Shown piece by piece: positions 5,140-12,378 of a DNA stretch of 64,000 bases. Position numbers and translations under genes: made by a program. A model generated the notes under the pieces. That model searched no databases and had not been told where the DNA came from. It was given only the letters and a program-made list of their open reading frames with translations. The stretch is from Bacteroidaceae bacterium (GTDB lineage: Bacteria > Bacteroidota > Bacteroidia > Bacteroidales > Bacteroidaceae). Numbering within the stretch: the stretch's first letter is position 1; each line of letters starts with the position of its first letter. Location of the stretch: the NCBI GenBank assembly GCA_017517605.1, contig JAFWYQ010000014.1, positions 1 to 64,000 on the forward strand, given 5' to 3'.

Positions 5140-5940
5140 ATGAAAAAGATGAACCATCCATTGCACGGACACGGTTACGGCGGTGCCAACCTGGACAACG
5201 TGCAGATTATCCCCCTCAAGGAGGTGGACTCTACCAACAATTACTTGCGCAGCCTGCCTGCCGAGGAAGTGAAGAACGAAATTGTAGTGGCCGTGGCCAA
5301 AAGTCAGACAGCCGGACGAGGCCAACGAGGAAAGTCATGGGAAAGCGAAGAGGGCAAAAACCTGACATTCAGCATTCTGATACGCCCCACATTCTTGGAA
5401 GCCCGTCAGCAATTCATCCTTTCGCAAGCCATAGCATTGAGCATTAAAGAGGTGCTCTACGACTATGTACGTTCGCCTCATCCACGCATCAAATGGCCCA
5501 ACGACATCTATTGGAACAAAAAGAAATTAGGAGGCATCCTCATCGAAAATGACCTCACTGGCAAGCAACTGGACAAGTGTATTATCGGTGTAGGGCTCAA
5601 TCTGAATCAAGAACAATTCGCCAGCGACGCCCCCAACCCCGTAAGTGTGTGGCAGATAACGGGTCACACGACTGAACCGCTTACCATCCTTCGGAAAATC
5701 ATGCAACGTTTTTCAAGGTATTACGAACTGATAAAGAAAGGCGAAACCAACGACTTGATAGACCAATACCACAAGAGCCTTTTCCGCCGCGTAGGTTTCC
5801 ACAAGTTCCGTATTCCTGGTGGTGAAGAATTCGACGCACGCATCCGCCGCGTCGAGCCGGACGGTCACTTGGTATTGGAAAGGACGGACGGACAGAAGCA
5901 GACCTTCGGATTCAAAGAGGTAGAATATATATTGAATTGA
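5140..5940 (+). CDS. birA: biotin--[acetyl-CoA-carboxylase] ligase
   Basis: A 266-residue class I biotin protein ligase without the N-terminal DNA-binding domain of E. coli BirA. The biotin/ATP-binding motif GRGQRGKSW lies near residues 60-68, and KWPNDIYW...KLGGILIE near 125-145. It activates biotin to biotinyl-AMP and attaches it to biotin-dependent carboxylases. It starts with MKKMNHPLHGHGYGG, a slightly extended N-terminus. The intergenic stretch from yraN (5054-5139) carries GAGTTATGAGTTGTG-type words. It is convergent with the STAS gene. Confidence 0.93.
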   Translation: MKKMNHPLHGHGYGGANLDNVQIIPLKEVDSTNNYLRSLPAEEVKNEIVVAVAKSQTAGRGQRGKSWESEEGKNLTFSILIRPTFLEARQQFILSQAIALSIKEVLYDYVRSPHPRIKWPNDIYWNKKKLGGILIENDLTGKQLDKCIIGVGLNLNQEQFASDAPNPVSVWQITGHTTEPLTILRKIMQRFSRYYELIKKGETNDLIDQYHKSLFRRVGFHKFRIPGGEEFDARIRRVEPDGHLVLERTDGQKQTFGFKEVEYILN

Positions 5941-6050
5941 AGGTTCAAGAGGTTCAAAGTTTAAGGTTCAAAGTTCAAACAGTGCCGCATGACTTTGAAC
6001 CTTAAACCTCTTGAACTTTGAACCTCGAACCTCTTGAACTTTTGAGCCTT
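5940..6050. repeat. long word-repeat palindrome with conserved core
   Basis: Arms built from repeated AAGGTTCAAAG words (5940-5980) and their complement CTTTGAACCTT (5992-6050) flank the core AGTGCCGCATGAC at 5981-5993. Transcripts in either direction can fold into a long hairpin. It lies between the convergent birA and STAS genes and probably serves as a two-way terminator. The core recurs at 42504-42516. Confidence 0.7.
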
Positions 6051-6056
6051 ATAATC

Positions 6057-6359
6057 TTACTCTATGGTAAGAATACGTGAGAAGCCTGTCAGGTCGAATA
6101 CCGAACGGACTTCCGTGCTCAAACCGCGCAAAACAAATTTACTTCCCTTAGCGGTCAGCATCTTATGAGCGGTCAGTATCACACGCAAACCGGAACTGCT
6201 GACATACTCCAATGCATTACAATCAAATACAACTTTAATACCACTCTCGGCATAGAGAGGACGTATCTCCTTATCCAATTCAGGAGCTGTCACGGTATCC
6301 AGACGACCTTCGATTACCACAATCGTCTCTTCATTCACTTTGTTAAATTCTACTTTCAT
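6057..6359 (-). CDS. STAS-domain protein (anti-sigma antagonist type)
   Basis: A 100-residue single STAS domain of the SpoIIAA/RsbV type: EGRLDTVTAPEL near the N-terminus and the phosphorylation-site region YVSSSGLRVI near residues 52-61, where SpoIIAA has its regulated serine. In the classical scheme, the unphosphorylated form binds the HATPase kinase. It is the last gene of the six-gene operon beginning near 11897, 29 bp after the HATPase gene. No SigB-type sigma factor lies nearby, so the output of this switch is open. Confidence 0.88.
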   Translation of the reverse strand: MKVEFNKVNEETIVVIEGRLDTVTAPELDKEIRPLYAESGIKVVFDCNALEYVSSSGLRVILTAHKMLTAKGSKFVLRGLSTEVRSVFDLTGFSRILTIE

Positions 6360-6388
6360 ATTACTACTATTATTCTATTATGTTCTTT

Positions 6389-6796
6389 TCAAAGTTCCTT
6401 TCCCAATGTCAACACATTGCGTCCTTCGATACGTTGGTATTCCACCGTATTCATTATCTGTCGGATAAGGAAGATTCCCAATCCGCCTATTTCCCGTTCC
6501 TCAGCAGAAAGGGTAACATCTGCATCGGGAATCTGTGTCGGGTCAAACTCCTTGCCTGAATCGGTCAGGACAAATATCAACATGTTGTCATCTTTCTTGG
6601 CTGAGAGGGTAATGATTTCGTGTTCCTCTTTGGGATAGGCATAGAGGATAACATTGGAAACAGCCTCTTCCAATACCAAATTCAGGTTAAACACCAAATC
6701 AGGAGTCAACATGAACTCCTCGCCCAAATTCTCTACAAATTCGGCCAAACGACTTATCTCTGCAATGTCGTTCTTTAAGATCAATGTCTTTTCCAT
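6389..6796 (-). CDS. RsbW/SpoIIAB-like ATP-binding protein (HATPase_c_2)
   Basis: A 135-residue GHKL-type ATPase. The N-box LEEAVSNVI lies near residues 41-49, the G1-like DSGKEFDP near 80-87, and the G2 motif GGLGIFLI near 103-110. Such proteins phosphorylate a STAS partner or hold a regulatory target. It lies 11 bp after the PP2C gene and 29 bp before the STAS gene, so the three form a complete partner-switching set. Its target protein cannot be told from the sequence. Confidence 0.88.
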   Translation of the reverse strand: MEKTLILKNDIAEISRLAEFVENLGEEFMLTPDLVFNLNLVLEEAVSNVILYAYPKEEHEIITLSAKKDDNMLIFVLTDSGKEFDPTQIPDADVTLSAEEREIGGLGIFLIRQIMNTVEYQRIEGRNVLTLGKEL

Positions 6797-6807
6797 ATTT
6801 TTTCTAT

Positions 6808-8742
6808 TTATTTACTTTTCAAATGAAAGCACATCATTGTAATGTCATCACTCTGTTCGGCATCTGCCCGATGAAGGGTAACATCCGCCATCACCTCCTC
6901 CAGTATGACACGCGGCGACTCCTTGCTGCACGCTGTCATACGATTCAGCAGGCGTTCGTCGGAATAGAGTTCTTTTGAAGGGCTCTCTGCCTCGGTCACC
7001 CCGTCCGTATAGAGGAACATATAGGAATCCCTGTCAAAGGATATTTCTTGCCCTTCGTAAGGGAACCCTTCAAAGAGTCCCAACGGCAGATTAGGCATCA
7101 CATCCATATAAACGGCCTTACCATCGGGCGACAGGATAACCGGTGCATTGTGGCCCGCATTGCAATAAGTCAATACATTGGTATCCAAATCCAAGATTCC
7201 CATAAAGGCCGTACAGAACATGTTGGATTCGTTGTTGTCGGCCAAAGTGTTGTTCAAGGCCGAAATGATTTCCGCCGGTTGGGAGAAATGCGAAGCAACC
7301 GTTCGGAACAGACGGCAAGTAACAGCCATTACCAACGATGCCGGCACTCCCTTTCCTGACACGTCGCCAACGATAAAGTAGAACTTATTACCCTCGATGA
7401 AGAAGTCGTAAAGGTCGCCCCCAACCTCTTTAGCCGGTACCAGATTGGCATAGAGGTCAATATCCTCGCGCTCAGGGAAGGGCGGAAATATCTTGGGCAA
7501 CATACCCATCTGTATGTCGTTGGCAATGCGCAATTCACTCTCGATGCGCTCCTTGTTGGCCGTAGTCTCCTTCAAGTCGTTCATATAGGTCACCAAGGAC
7601 CTCTGCATATATTCAAAGGAGTCGTGCAATGTCTTCATCTCGTCGCGGCTATGAATTACCGGCAGTTCGGCCTCAAAGTTTCCATGCGCAATCTCGGTAG
7701 CTGACCCGGCAAACACAGTAAGGGGATTGGTCAACTTTCGGATGGTGTAATAACACAAGCCACCCATCAGCAACAGACCTAACACACCAATACACACCAA
7801 TACAATACGCATGGAATCGACTCCTGCAAAAATTTCGGAATACAGACACGACACAGCCACTGACCAACCTGTAGCCTTTACCGGAGCATAGAAGAAATAG
7901 AACTCGTTTCCATCCTGTTCGAATGTCTCTACGCCACTCTCACCATTCACCATGCGGTGTCCCATCTGTTTGAAAGCGGGATTGGTTAAAGCCAAACCGC
8001 TGGTAAAGAATGTTTCGCACAGGATAGCATCCGTATTGTCATGTACCAAGAAGGTTCCTCCACGGCCAATCATCAAACTGGTTGAATGGGGATAAGGCTT
8101 GATGGCATTTACCTTGCCCGCAAACCATTCCAACGATACGTCGGCCGTAAAGACCGCATACATTTTTCCTGTTTCATCATACAAGGGATAAGAGTAGGTT
8201 GTCATCACCACCTCACCTCCTCCATCGTCGTAGTAAGGCTCGCTCCAATAGGGCTTATTCAGCAACTTGGGTATCTGATACCAATCCATATAGTGGTATT
8301 CATAGTCTTCTGTACCCAATTGCTTTACAAAAATATTGCCATCAGTTGCACGATAGGCATAAGGCGAGAACAATACACCACGTTCGGGGAAATAAGCGGG
8401 TTCAAACGCTACGGCACTGCCGCAAATATTCGGATTAGCCTCCAACAATCTGCAAGTCAGTTCGTACATATAGTCCCCGTCTTCCTTGTGACTTGCCACA
8501 ATCCATGCCATATTCTGCACGGCCGACTCCACTTGTTCCAACACATGGGAAATTTCCTGATTGGTATATTCCAACGCGGCTTTTCCGCGCTGCATGGCCT
8601 CTTCGCGAACATAGTTACGGGCAGATTGATAGCTTGTCAGTATCACCACAAAGAATACCACTGCCATCACCAGCAGCAAATACAGGCTCAACCGTGCCGA
8701 AAAGGAGTTCTGAAGGTGAACCCTTTGCATATTCCACTTCAT
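6808..8742 (-). CDS. Cache-HAMP-PP2C (SpoIIE-type) sensor phosphatase
   Basis: A 644-residue inner-membrane protein. A membrane segment at about 17-37 is followed by a periplasmic domain of about 270 residues that resembles dCache/PDC sensors, a second membrane segment near 310-330, a HAMP-like region (about 335-385), a coiled linker, and a PP2C/SpoIIE phosphatase from about 430. Metal-binding motifs are visible: VGGDLYDFF, GDVSGKGVPAS and the late DDITMM. It should dephosphorylate the STAS protein when the sensor domain is engaged. The start ATG overlaps the stop of the binding-protein gene (ATGA), and GGAGG lies just before it, which is unusual in Bacteroidales. Confidence 0.9.
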   Translation of the reverse strand: MKWNMQRVHLQNSFSARLSLYLLLVMAVVFFVVILTSYQSARNYVREEAMQRGKAALEYTNQEISHVLEQVESAVQNMAWIVASHKEDGDYMYELTCRLLEANPNICGSAVAFEPAYFPERGVLFSPYAYRATDGNIFVKQLGTEDYEYHYMDWYQIPKLLNKPYWSEPYYDDGGGEVVMTTYSYPLYDETGKMYAVFTADVSLEWFAGKVNAIKPYPHSTSLMIGRGGTFLVHDNTDAILCETFFTSGLALTNPAFKQMGHRMVNGESGVETFEQDGNEFYFFYAPVKATGWSVAVSCLYSEIFAGVDSMRIVLVCIGVLGLLLMGGLCYYTIRKLTNPLTVFAGSATEIAHGNFEAELPVIHSRDEMKTLHDSFEYMQRSLVTYMNDLKETTANKERIESELRIANDIQMGMLPKIFPPFPEREDIDLYANLVPAKEVGGDLYDFFIEGNKFYFIVGDVSGKGVPASLVMAVTCRLFRTVASHFSQPAEIISALNNTLADNNESNMFCTAFMGILDLDTNVLTYCNAGHNAPVILSPDGKAVYMDVMPNLPLGLFEGFPYEGQEISFDRDSYMFLYTDGVTEAESPSKELYSDERLLNRMTACSKESPRVILEEVMADVTLHRADAEQSDDITMMCFHLKSK

Positions 8743-9710
8743 AATTTACCTCCTTTCAGCATTTCGTATGTAACAGGTTCGTTGATGCGGCGATGCTTCA
8801 ATAGCAAATCACTCAACTTTTTCACATCTTCGGGATGCAATTCAAAAGATGGAGCAGACCCCGGTGTGTCGCACTGAAGGCGTAAAATCTCCGCCAACAT
8901 CTTTTCTTGATGATAACGCCCGGATTTCAAATTCTCTCTCTTGATTGTTTTCATGACAATATCCAATGCCTCCTCCGGATTTTTGTGAGCATACTCCCAC
9001 CCCCGTTTGGATGCTTCAGCAAAGGCTTTGGCCTTTTCGGGATAGCGACGATAAAAATCCATTGATACATACAGTCCGTCTTCGGGATAATCGTACCCTT
9101 CATCCAACAACAGCATCACCGGTTTGTCTTCATACCCCGCAGCCTGAATCTGCAAACATTCATTGTAACTCATGGCCAAGGTAGCATCTATAGCTCCCGA
9201 TATATACAAGTTGGTATTTTCGATAAACGAAATCCATTGTATCTCCAGATTCCTTTCTACATCAAGAATGCGTGCCAAATCGCCAAAGCCAGCTTTCCAT
9301 ACACCAACCTTCTTGCCGCGTAAGTCTTCTATTGTACGAATATTATCATGTCTCGACACAATACACACCCCATTATGCTGCGAAGTTTGCAGAATATTTA
9401 CCATTTCAACACCACGATCCAGTTCCACCAATGCTTCCTGTAATTGCATGGTAATGATGTCACTGGAGCCTTCTATCAAACGATTTCGGGCAGAATAAGA
9501 CGCCGACGGATGTTGGAAATCCACATCCAAGCCTGCCTCTTTATAGAATCCCTTTTCCCAAGCTACATAATATCCGGCAAACTGGCTCTGTGGTGTCCAT
9601 TGGGGGGTGAACACAATACGCTGTGCCTGTGCAAGCATCGGCAAGAGCAACAGGAATAATGCCAAAGTTCTGAAATTCATCAATCTATTCATTTCTCTCA
9701 TTGTTTTCAT
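8739..9710 (-). CDS. NMT1/THI5-type ABC substrate-binding protein
   Basis: A 323-residue exported protein with a signal peptide ending near LLPMLAQAQ and no clear lipobox. The body matches the NMT1/SsuA/ThiY binding-protein class: FTPQWTPQSQFAGYYVAWEKGFY near the start, then LRGKKVGVWKAG and DATLAMSYNE. Members bind thiamin precursors, sulfonates or nitrate; the ligand here is unknown. I use the ATG at 9710, whose last bases overlap the ATPase stop codon (ATGA); the ATG at 9701 is possible. Both neighbours overlap it, so it belongs to the ABC-phosphatase operon. Confidence 0.87.
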   Translation of the reverse strand: MKTMREMNRLMNFRTLALFLLLLPMLAQAQRIVFTPQWTPQSQFAGYYVAWEKGFYKEAGLDVDFQHPSASYSARNRLIEGSSDIITMQLQEALVELDRGVEMVNILQTSQHNGVCIVSRHDNIRTIEDLRGKKVGVWKAGFGDLARILDVERNLEIQWISFIENTNLYISGAIDATLAMSYNECLQIQAAGYEDKPVMLLLDEGYDYPEDGLYVSMDFYRRYPEKAKAFAEASKRGWEYAHKNPEEALDIVMKTIKRENLKSGRYHQEKMLAEILRLQCDTPGSAPSFELHPEDVKKLSDLLLKHRRINEPVTYEMLKGGKL

Positions 9711-10801
9711 TCTTTCAATCCAAAGCAGAGCCTTACCCTTGGTCCTTCGGGACAATCCTCTACGGTTTCGTTCATGTGGTCGCACAGACCTTCGATGATG
9801 GCCATACTCAGTTCGTCGGGTGCAAACTCCTTGTCGTGCAACACCGATGTGATACCCGCAGGCATCAACAGTTCCAGCGACAGGGTCTTTTCCTTTTCTG
9901 AATAGCGCAAGGCCAAGTCTATGGTACCCTTGTCCAGCGGCACCACTTGCAGTACCTCTTCGCTGAGCAGCTGTACCCTGAACTTCTGTTCGTGCGACAA
10001 ATTGTTACGTTCGCAGAAGTGTGCCATGCCGGCATGCAACTCGTACAGGTCGTAACGGCGCGAACGCACCGCATAGTGGAAGTCGCGAATGCGGTTCACA
10101 AACACACGGGTAGCCTCCTGTCGGGGATGGTTGAACACCTCGTCCGATGTACCCACCTCCACAATATGTCCATCGGTCATGAAGACTACGCGGTCGGCTA
10201 TGTCTGATGCCAAGGCCATGTCGTGAGTGACCAGCACCAATGCCACCTCCTGCTTCAGTTTGCGAAGCACCTCTTTGACCTCGCTGGTGGCCAAGGGGTC
10301 GAGTGCAGAAGTGATTTCGTCGAGCAACAACACCTGGGGTTTCATCACCAGACAACGGGCCATGGCCACACGCTGGCGTTGTCCCGAAGAGAGTTCGCGG
10401 GGGAACATGTGCATCTTTTCGGCCAATCCCACCAATTCCAATTGGCGCACGGCTTCGGCCTCGGCCTCTTTCTCCGTCAGGTGCAACACGTGTTGGGGGG
10501 CAAGCATCAGATTATGCAACACTGTCAGGTGTGGGAAGAGGTTGTATGACTGGAACACCATGCCCACCTTCTGCCGACCGCCTTGCTTGCCCAGAGGCTT
10601 GCACGGGGCACCGTCCAGCAATATCTGTCCCGAATCCAATTTCTCCAATCCGGCAATGCAGCGTATGAGGGTGCTCTTGCCACACCCCATCGGACCAATC
10701 ACACATACGGCCTCGTGCGGTGCCACTGTCAGCGACACATCCTTCAGCACTTGCCGGTCGCCGAAAGATTTATTGATATGGGATATTTCAATCATGGACA
10801 A
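9707..10801 (-). CDS. ABC transporter ATPase with HATPase-like C-terminal extension
   Basis: A 364-residue protein. Residues 1-240 or so are a GlnQ-type ABC ATPase: Walker A GPMGCGKST, signature LSSGQRQRVAMAR (Ser in place of the usual Gly), Walker B LLLDEITSALDP and the H-loop THD. The remaining 120 residues are not the usual NIL or TOBE extension. Their layout follows the standalone RsbW-like protein of the same operon (helix with LLSEEV, strands, then LSMAIIEGLCDHMNETVED and a closing RVRLCFGLK), but the N-box Asn and the glycine loops are missing. It would energise the permease encoded just upstream (14-bp overlap), and the extension may link transport to the phosphatase module. The domain resemblance is my pattern reading. 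Confidence 0.85.
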   Translation of the reverse strand: MSMIEISHINKSFGDRQVLKDVSLTVAPHEAVCVIGPMGCGKSTLIRCIAGLEKLDSGQILLDGAPCKPLGKQGGRQKVGMVFQSYNLFPHLTVLHNLMLAPQHVLHLTEKEAEAEAVRQLELVGLAEKMHMFPRELSSGQRQRVAMARCLVMKPQVLLLDEITSALDPLATSEVKEVLRKLKQEVALVLVTHDMALASDIADRVVFMTDGHIVEVGTSDEVFNHPRQEATRVFVNRIRDFHYAVRSRRYDLYELHAGMAHFCERNNLSHEQKFRVQLLSEEVLQVVPLDKGTIDLALRYSEKEKTLSLELLMPAGITSVLHDKEFAPDELSMAIIEGLCDHMNETVEDCPEGPRVRLCFGLKE

Positions 10802-11897
10802 ACAGTTTTTGGCACATACCTCCTACTGACCTGGTAATCAACCACGAAAGCAACAGGTAGAGCAGTGAAACAATCAACAATGGCAGAAAAGCATCAAATG
10901 TCACCCCACGGATGGCATCCACAGCCTTCACCAAGTCCTTCTGAGCTATGTAGCCCGCATACGAGGTGGAGCGGAGCAACAGTTTCAACTCGGCAATCAC
11001 CAACGGCAGCATGGTGCGTACCGCCTGGGGAAAGACCACATAGCGATAGACCTGCCGCGAAGTAAGTCCCAGCATCAAGCCTGCTTCGCGCTGCTCCTTG
11101 CTTATCTGCGTGATGTGTATCTTGAAAATCTTTGTGAGCGAAGCCGAGGTGTAGACTCCCAATGCAATGGCTGCCACTACGATACCGCTCAGCGAGGTGG
11201 AGGCAAACACCACGTAGTAGAAGAACATCATCAGTACCACCGAGGGGATATCGTGGATGGTGAAGACAAACCAATGCAACGGATGGTAGAGCCACCCCCA
11301 TTTGTGGTTGATGCCCATATAGGTCAACAGCACGGCCAACAGGAAGGCAAATACGGCCGCTCCCAAGAAGATGATTACTGTGGTGTAGAAGCCGCCCGTA
11401 ATCAAGTGCCAAGCCTCGTCGGCAAACAGATTGCGATGAATGCGCTCCTTCCACCCCTGCAACCAACCACGGGCATCCACCTCCTTATCGGCCAAGGGGG
11501 CATACTGTCGCGTGGGCACCATCACGGCAATACCTCCCACCCCCTCGGCTGTCGCGCCGATGCGTCCCAAGCAGGTGTAGTCGGAGTTGGTGGCCATCAC
11601 CATGTCGGCCGTCACTCCATCCATCACCACGGCATCACGCTTGCCTGCCTCGATGTCGATGAACAGGTTCAACGTCTTATCATAGTCCTTCAAGTCCGCA
11701 CCGGGAAAGTGCACTTGGGCCAAACTGTCGCCAAGCACACCATGATACACCGCCAGCCGCTTGCCTGCCAAATCGTCCAAATCGGTATAGAGGCTCTCCG
11801 CGTCAGGACGGCATCCGCCAAGCGCCCCCAACAGGAGCAGACAGAGCAATATGCTCCACATGCGGCTCAGATTCTTTCTCTCAACAATACTCTTCAT
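10788..11897 (-). CDS. ABC permease fused to a single periplasmic binding lobe
   Basis: A protein of about 369 residues with a lipoprotein-like signal (LLLLGALGGC). Residues 30-150 or so look like one lobe of a family-3 solute-binding protein (DLAGKRLAVYHG, AGKRDAVVMDG). From about 165 on comes a polar amino-acid type permease domain with several membrane helices and the EAA loop EAGLMLGLTSRQVYRYVVFPQA that docks the ATPase. First gene of the six-gene operon. The start is uncertain: the ATG at 11909 lies within about 11 bases of the -7 box, so I chose 11897. Fusions of binding and permease domains are known; the missing half of the binding domain is notable. Confidence 0.8.
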   Translation of the reverse strand: MKSIVERKNLSRMWSILLCLLLLGALGGCRPDAESLYTDLDDLAGKRLAVYHGVLGDSLAQVHFPGADLKDYDKTLNLFIDIEAGKRDAVVMDGVTADMVMATNSDYTCLGRIGATAEGVGGIAVMVPTRQYAPLADKEVDARGWLQGWKERIHRNLFADEAWHLITGGFYTTVIIFLGAAVFAFLLAVLLTYMGINHKWGWLYHPLHWFVFTIHDIPSVVLMMFFYYVVFASTSLSGIVVAAIALGVYTSASLTKIFKIHITQISKEQREAGLMLGLTSRQVYRYVVFPQAVRTMLPLVIAELKLLLRSTSYAGYIAQKDLVKAVDAIRGVTFDAFLPLLIVSLLYLLLSWLITRSVGGMCQKLFVHD

Positions 11898-11919
11898 TTG
11901 ATTATTCATAAAATCAGAT

Positions 11920-11929
11920 TGCAAAGATA
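11920..11929 (-). promoter_or_regulatory. -7 box of the ABC-phosphatase operon
   Basis: Minus strand reads TATCTTTGCA, a strong TAnnTTTG match, 23 bases upstream of the chosen start. It appears to be the only promoter for all six genes, because the junctions downstream overlap or are at most 29 bp. Confidence 0.65.
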
Positions 11930-12030
11930 CTTATTAAATCCTTACAATCTGACATTTTTACTCAGTTTTTCTCCAAAGAGGGGGAATAGGTTGATTCCTT
12001 CAGAGACACCCTTCCTACTCCCCTCGGAAG

Positions 12031-12247
12031 AGATACGTATGTCTTCGGCGATGAGATACGTATGTCTTCAGCAATGAGATACGTATGTCTTCAGCAATGA
12101 GATACGTATGTCTTCAGCAATGAGATACGTATGTCTTCGGCAATGAGATACGTATGTCTCCGGCAAGGGGGTACGTATGTCTCCGGCAAGGGGATACGTA
12201 TATTTTCGACAAAGAGATACGTATATTATTGGTAATAAAGTATATAC
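12031..12247. repeat. 23-bp tandem array, nine copies plus one degenerate
   Basis: ATACGTA starts at 12033, 12056, 12079, 12102, 12125, 12148, (G)12171, 12194 and 12217, an exact 23-bp period; a decayed copy sits at 12240. Each unit has a palindromic TACGTA followed by TGTCTTC(A/G)GCAA. The period is not a multiple of three, so it does not encode a protein repeat. It lies between the operon start at 11897 and the 3' end of the pectate lyase gene. The rest of 11930-12378 shows no gene; 12298-12357 holds GTCCCCACA-type complementary words that could form a terminator hairpin for the lyase gene. Confidence 0.9.
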
Positions 12248-12378
12248 ATCCATGCAAATCCTTCTAAAAAGCCCTACAGAGGCACTCTTTGACACCTATG
12301 GGAAAGGGAGAAAAAGGCCGTCCCCACACCCTCCATAGAGTGGAAGATGTGGGGACGGGAATATTCCATAAATCGACT

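Follow-up and report, generated by a model that had tools for sequence, protein, structure and literature searches.

A candidate STAS-gated ABC importer encoded with an RsbU/V/W-type switch in a Bacteroidaceae gene cluster

What does a switch made of a phosphatase, a kinase and a STAS protein act on when it is encoded together with an ATP-binding cassette (ABC) importer? The question is raised by a cluster of six genes in the first 64,000 nucleotides (positions 1 to 64,000, here termed the window) of contig JAFWYQ010000014.1 from a Bacteroidaceae bacterium (assembly GCA_017517605.1). The genes encode a permease, an ABC ATPase, an NMT1/THI5-type periplasmic binding protein, a sensor phosphatase of the PP2C type, an RsbW-like kinase (HATPase) and a STAS protein. 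A check of open reading frames (ORFs) and Pfam domains bears out what a first-pass annotation, made from the letters alone, had described at this place: six genes, all on the minus strand, with these domains. That annotation named no target for the switch. The importer ATPase is now a likely one, by way of a C-terminal domain predicted to have the fold of RsbW. Our preferred reading, to which we give an even chance, is that the cluster encodes a phosphorylation-controlled gate on the importer, with the STAS protein docking on this domain.

The ATPase and its C-terminal domain

The ATPase and the permease core are of the polar amino acid importer type (ArtPQ/GlnPQ). Among the best 60 of 584 matches, the closest solved relatives of the ATPase (ArtP 3c41 and 2olj, E ~1e-64) cover residues 1-236 and a match to PotA extends to residue 255; some NCBIfam polyamine-type models reach residues 284-291. 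A plain amino acid ATPase was dropped as a description, since residues 232-362 are then unaccounted for. These 131 residues, overlooked at first pass and here termed the C-terminal domain (CTD), give on their own no Pfam match above cut-off, HATPase_c_2 included. In a Pfam scan of 33 CTD members, three match HATPase_c_2 (best E 0.016), below the curated cut-off. A wide profile comparison of CTD with the switch kinase gives E 1e-4 with a probability of 57%, and a confident structure model, with its fold match, predicts for CTD a GHKL fold as in the anti-sigma kinases RsbW and SpoIIAB. Its identity is settled by these two routes only, since the other sequence routes, given below, are weak or negative.

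As a kinase the domain appears degenerate. The position of the N-box Asn is Val in the window and V, I, L or M in 104/104 close homologs among the matches listed, and the motifs that we take to be G1 and G2 are lost, as judged by eye. Helix 1 opens with a YDLYxL motif (ATPase residues 248-253) that hardly varies within the close set. A chain of alignments leads from CTD position 49 to Glu44 of the switch kinase and on to Glu49 of RsbW (whose crystal construct begins at residue 5), and places ATPase Glu280 on RsbW Glu49. In RsbV-RsbW structures this glutamate contacts RsbV Ser56 (PMC7340262; this and the other papers given by PMC number are cited from excerpts). Position 49 is Glu in all 104 distinct sequences of the close set (among the matches listed), in 34 of 41 Bacteroidales sequences in which the ATPase is a separate protein and in 13 of 15 fused permease-ATPases. 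That the docking glutamate persists in a predicted pseudo-kinase is suggestive.

Linkage of importer and switch genes in other genomes

A sample of 399 genomes of the family holds 49 CTD places in 32 genomes, all of which were fetched and searched for switch genes within 7.5 kb; at two (G361 and G401) a stop lies inside the matched stretch. A switch gene is found at no fewer than 12 of the 49 places, at least, that is, because some contigs end inside the radius. A PP2C gene lies this near at nine places, whereas the number of PP2C genes and the size of the genomes would predict 0.70 (Poisson 6e-8, with related genomes not independent). A separate scan of named genomes covered 36 loci, the genomes partly overlapping the family sample. 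Among 81 distinct CTD-ATPases, 18 are linked to a switch gene within 7.5 kb.

The arrangement varies from locus to locus. The gene order of the window recurs in L007, L012 and L098. Other loci place STAS first and fuse PP2C to HATPase (L016, L017), or follow the orders STAS-x-PP2C-ABC-HATP-PERM (L019 and L021, in Paludibacteraceae), HATP-STAS-PERM-ABC (L122, L159) or PERM-ABC-STAS (L008, L099), where PERM, ABC and HATP stand for the permease, ATPase and HATPase genes. Permease-ATPase fusions are accompanied by NMT1-PP2C-STAS (L130-L132) or by a fusion of STAS to an APH-family kinase (L153), and genome G012 has the genes dispersed over three contigs, with PERM-ABC on contig C1, PERM-ABC-STAS on C54 and NMT1-PP2C-HATP on C44. 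The direct same-strand neighbours of PERM/ABC at the 18 linked loci are STAS (7), NMT1 (6), HATPase (3) and PP2C (3), the last two being the same three near-copies. On a FastTree tree, in which several long branches are flagged, linkage needs 6 changes against 16.5 in shuffles.

Linkage between the ABC pair and the switch thus exceeds chance and comes in many gene orders, as the first-pass annotation supposed in treating them as one device. It had also named rare adjacency in relatives as a point that would tell against a device, and here the outcome is divided: linkage is usual in the clade of the window (12 of the 14 rows in the set starred around it on the tree) but exceptional elsewhere (12/49 in the family, none at 24 Akkermansia loci).

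Sequence distances, compared over 11-13 linked loci, show which genes travel together. The correlation is highest for PP2C with NMT1 (r 0.91), followed by ATPase with permease (0.78) and HATPase with PP2C and NMT1 (0.63-0.76); it is 0.36-0.56 across these groups, and any of the correlations listed is reached by at most 9 of 2000 permutations. On these grounds we distinguish a module A (permease and ATPase with its CTD) from a module B (NMT1, PP2C and HATPase). STAS occurs beside either. At 25 of the 36 PP2C loci examined the immediate neighbour of PP2C is the NMT1 gene, and 18 of these 25 have no CTD-ATPase within 8 kb. Such an ATPase lies within 8 kb at 7 of the 36, which is not an unbiased rate since the loci were chosen by rank and in part for the presence of a CTD in the genome.

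The first-pass annotation had assigned the NMT1 protein to the importer as its binding protein. This is not favoured: the gene adjoins PP2C, and its distances track those of PP2C far more closely than those of the ATPase (r 0.50). It keeps some probability in the window, where the binding domain of the permease itself, also missed at first pass, looks incomplete. Of a family-3 binding domain, this permease seems to retain a single lobe. Its residues ~40-120 give weak NCBIfam matches to substrate-binding proteins at model positions ~117-221, all below cut-off, and no SBP_bac_3 match in Pfam at E 1; Foldseek aligns the N-terminal domain with parts of 4ymx and 4prs at E only ~1e-2. Relatives such as L013 have a 498-residue permease form with two SBP_bac_3 stretches. 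A complete family-3 binding protein is not present in the window permease, and no search was made for a separate one elsewhere in the genome.

The short form of the permease has 586 homologs at E 0.001 in public protein sets (120 listed, 39 taken into set A3); among 61 relatives and 393 genomes of the order it was seen only in the genome of the window and in G012. Permease and CTD-ATPase are fused in a ~900-residue ORF at L130, L131, L132, L135-L137, L148, L152-L157, L160 and L162, which belong to other Bacteroidaceae genera; the L137 version has 1155 residues. Secondary transporters lie beside the ABC genes at L012 (1654-3426, CitMHS/Na_sulph_symp with TrkA_C) and at L021 (11080-12330, a sodium:dicarboxylate symporter), and L015 and L022 have ORFs whose start resembles these. 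The two transporters are hints to the substrate.

What the switch may act on

The switch itself has the composition of an RsbU/V/W-type module. A SpoIIE-type PP2C, a HATPase_c_2 kinase and a STAS protein are encoded together, each with Pfam matches above cut-offs, and the residues typical of such modules are present: STAS Ser55 aligns to the serine of the SpoIIAA SSGL motif, and in a match of the kinase to RsbW 6m36 in the PDB (E 5.2e-5) Glu44 and the N-box Asn48 fall on RsbW Glu49 and Asn53. The PP2C is the one SpoIIE match found in its own genome, an assembly ~80% complete. The binding protein distantly resembles binders of thiamine precursors and sulfonates. Its best solved relatives are 4nmy (E 5.1e-19), 3ix1 (a formylpyrimidine binder) and THI5, from which we would guess that the ligand sensed is a pyrimidine or thiamine-like compound.

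Fusions involving switch proteins were seen at other loci. L110 has a natural HATPase_c_2-STAS fusion protein (5792-6547) upstream of NMT1-PP2C. Fusions of STAS to an APH-family kinase adjoin the module or the ATPase at L099 (2678-3889), L102 (2972-4180) and L153 (4079-5437), those of L099 and L153 identified by Pfam, and that of L102, with similar ORFs in L104 and L105, by sequence likeness. They are possibly a second output of the same switch.

In the scheme that we prefer, the NMT1 protein and the Cache-HAMP-PP2C protein would sense a metabolite. By analogy with RsbW/RsbV, SpoIIAB/SpoIIAA and SiaB/SiaC, the HATPase protein would phosphorylate STAS, the PP2C would dephosphorylate it, and unphosphorylated STAS would dock. 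The putative docking site is the RsbW-fold pseudo-kinase domain of the importer ATPase, where docking would gate transport; the HATPase protein would compete with CTD for STAS, so that the second partner would be a transporter and not a sigma factor. That the ATPase gained an RsbW-fold pseudo-kinase as a landing pad for STAS, letting the sensor phosphatase gate uptake without transcription, we hold to be a little short of evenly balanced. The first-pass annotation had uptake and sensing feeding one output. Their linkage stands, but because the ATPase carries the predicted RsbW-fold domain a flow from sensor to switch to importer is likelier than a third output fed by uptake and sensing together.

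A number of results weigh against a gate on the importer. The similarity of CTD to the RsbW family at the level of sequence is weak: beyond the lack of significance in Pfam, a CTD profile search of the PDB gave one chance-level match and nothing significant, and hhalign of a narrow CTD profile (33 rows) with the single kinase gave E 0.18, again not significant. The RsbV-contacting RsbW residues Asp42, Lys44 and Ser48 are not kept in CTD, only Glu49 being so, and RsbW Arg23 and Tyr118 have no secure alignment to it. Among Akkermansia sequences only 8 of 24 have Glu at position 49. An Asn is present at the N-box site in 8/41 Bacteroidales sequences from separate ATPases, 4/24 from Akkermansia and 0/15 from fusions, so either the residue has been lost unevenly or these more distant sets are misaligned at this point. 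ABC and switch distances are only moderately correlated (r 0.36-0.50 with the ATPase). Co-occurrence across genomes is of little help. SpoIIE is present in 13 of 14 CTD-bearing genomes tested, and in the family PP2C occurs in 32/32 genomes with CTD against 116/367 without; within genus g48 the figures are 18/18 and 16/19, and within Akkermansia 19/22 and 36/37. As neither genus shows a contrast, the family-wide association may be shared ancestry only, and co-occurrence was set aside as decisive functional evidence.

The best placed of the alternatives, although unlikely, reverses the flow: CTD would dimerise or pair with the HATPase kinase, the state of the transporter would set the kinase, and STAS would relay the transport state to some other target, in line with the first-pass annotation. 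ABC ATPases act as dimers, and a dimer would put two CTDs side by side. RsbW homodimerises through its alpha1/beta1 surface (PMC7340262), the gene next after that of the ATPase at the near-copies L018, L019 and L021 is that of the HATPase, and the STAS-APH fusions beside some modules could be the alternative output. Docking of STAS is nevertheless the better fit to two observations, namely that PERM/ABC more often adjoin STAS than HATPase (7 against 3 of the 18 linked loci) and that the helix 2 glutamate, invariant in the close set, corresponds to the RsbW residue facing STAS.

Ranked next, and likewise unlikely, is the explanation that the modules are ordinary neighbours, CTD being an old structural or stabilising ABC domain and the operons being shared through the same nutrient. 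The larger part of the CTD-ATPases, 63 of 81, stand alone, with no switch gene within 7.5 kb, and none was found nearby at the 24 Akkermansia loci examined; both results also count against a gate, and since most stand alone CTD is of use even where no switch is linked. PP2C relatives are common besides (148/399 family genomes), and 29 of the 36 PP2C loci have no CTD-ATPase within 8 kb. Mere neighbours would not, however, be expected to share a predicted fold with the switch kinase, as CTD does, to be linked far above chance in recurring but different orders, or to keep Glu49 in the close set despite the loss of the N-box Asn.

Improbable, last, is a distant target, with the switch acting, as in Bacillus and Chlamydia, on a regulator whose gene lies elsewhere, a sigma factor or another, and the importer merely supplying ligand: sigma factors are the classical targets of PP2C, RsbW and RsbV types (PMC11619594), in Chlamydia such proteins reportedly act on the main sigma (PMC4552016), and sigma matches below the TIGR02980 cut-off occur in 40 of 41 genomes (the host's own, ~80% complete, with matches on other contigs that reach at most 127 of 234 bits, and 40 relatives), but a SigB/F/G match above that cut-off occurs in none of the 41, which agrees with the first-pass remark that no SigB-like sigma lies nearby.

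Overall the cluster is likely a variant of partner switching, with MlaB-MlaF as nearest precedent. In MlaF-MlaB, of the E. coli phospholipid ABC transporter, a small STAS protein directly serves an ABC ATPase, and its authors, who report finding no further pairing of STAS with ABC in the PDB, suggest that such regulation may be wider (PMC7367683). MlaB binds the nucleotide-binding domain itself, with phosphorylation unproven there, whereas our cluster co-encodes a phosphatase and a kinase; an RsbW-fold domain, predicted here on the ATPase, is not mentioned for MlaF-MlaB in the excerpt of that paper. The cluster STAS scores 22.7 bits with mlaB_1, whose cut-off is 90, and so is not an MlaB-type subunit. 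RsbU-RsbV-RsbW and SpoIIE-SpoIIAA-SpoIIAB comprise the same three protein types, with alignable STAS serine and kinase N-box residues; unlike them, the cluster has an ABC ATPase with a second, predicted RsbW-fold domain lacking the N-box Asn, and no SigB/F/G sigma above cut-off in the 41 genomes. SiaABCD of Pseudomonas aeruginosa is reported to use a PP2C, a kinase and a substrate protein to control an enzyme rather than a sigma factor (PMC7647112), a diguanylate cyclase where the target proposed here is an importer. The cluster PP2C matches the SiaA model weakly (64.5 of 700 bits) and is not of SiaA type, the NCBIfam matches of the cluster proteins include neither SiaB nor SiaC, and Pfam finds no cyclase domain in the six. 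Structure entries for MalFGK2-EIIAGlc (4jbw) and NrtBCD-PII (8wm7) show a signalling protein bound to an ABC importer, presumably by mechanisms that use neither STAS nor an RsbW-fold domain.

To our knowledge, on/off switching of ABC importers after their synthesis is understood in few cases. An RsbW-fold domain on an ABC ATPase is not described in any title or abstract opening that our literature searches listed, subscription papers being mostly outside their reach. The cluster is a second candidate for STAS control of an ABC ATPase, here with phosphatase and kinase supplied, and a gate of this kind would be a second route of STAS control over ABC transporters, across Bacteroidales and, by the same domain, Akkermansia; the named relatives of the host are mostly animal-gut bacteria. 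It would also propose a target for the PP2C switches so common in Bacteroidaceae, and it singles out one domain, which Pfam annotation misses, and one residue, Glu280.

The locus and its signals

Co-transcription of the six genes (Table 1) is plausible. The junctions first described as two ATGA overlaps (ATPase/NMT1 and NMT1/PP2C) and gaps of 11 bp (PP2C/HATPase) and 29 bp (HATPase/STAS) are as stated. The 14 bp overlap given for permease and ATPase needs a TTG start; from the ATG at 10795, where the homolog P0001 starts (MIEISHI), the overlap is 8 bp. Promoter and terminator evidence is weak. The -7 box noted upstream is present (read 11929-11922), but it carries little weight since its pattern, TAnnTTTG, has 52 matches in the window on both strands, two of them inside the cluster's own genes on the cluster strand. 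Terminator-like sites of the hairpin type number 5 in the region against 6.2 expected, so that the one upstream is a consensus match only.

Table 1. Features of the cluster and their positions in the window
Feature	Position	Strand	Remarks
Permease	10788..11909	-	373 residues; Pfam BPD_transp_1; alternative start possible at 11897
Permease N-terminal extracytoplasmic domain, residues ~38-145	11475..11798	-	SBP_bac_3-like, likely one lobe
ABC ATPase	9707..10795	-	362 residues; Pfam ABC_tran
ATPase CTD, residues 232-362	9710..10102	-	131 residues; predicted RsbW/SpoIIAB fold without N-box Asn
Codon of ATPase Glu280 (CTD position 49)	9956..9958	-	by alignment to RsbW Glu49
NMT1/THI5-type periplasmic binding protein	8739..9710	-	Pfam NMT1, E 7.7e-37
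Sensor phosphatase	6808..8742	-	644 residues; MCP-like PDC/dCache, HAMP and SpoIIE-type PP2C (Pfam)
RsbW-like kinase, HATPase_c_2	6389..6796	-	135 residues; Pfam, E 6.4e-25
STAS protein	6057..6359	-	100 residues; Pfam STAS, E 1.2e-18; TIGR00377 above cut-off
-7-box-like TATCTTTG	11922..11929	-	pattern match; weak
Terminator-like hairpin	12318..12358	-	18-pair stem and T tail; between upstream gene and cluster

Two repeats flank the cluster. Just upstream, at 12030-12224 of the window, a 23-bp unit is repeated in tandem (8.5 copies, 91% match), and its consensus contains the palindrome ATACGTAT. At the other end, in the interval 5941-6056 where the STAS gene and a biotin ligase gene converge, GTTCAAA/GAACCTC motifs are repeated on both strands.

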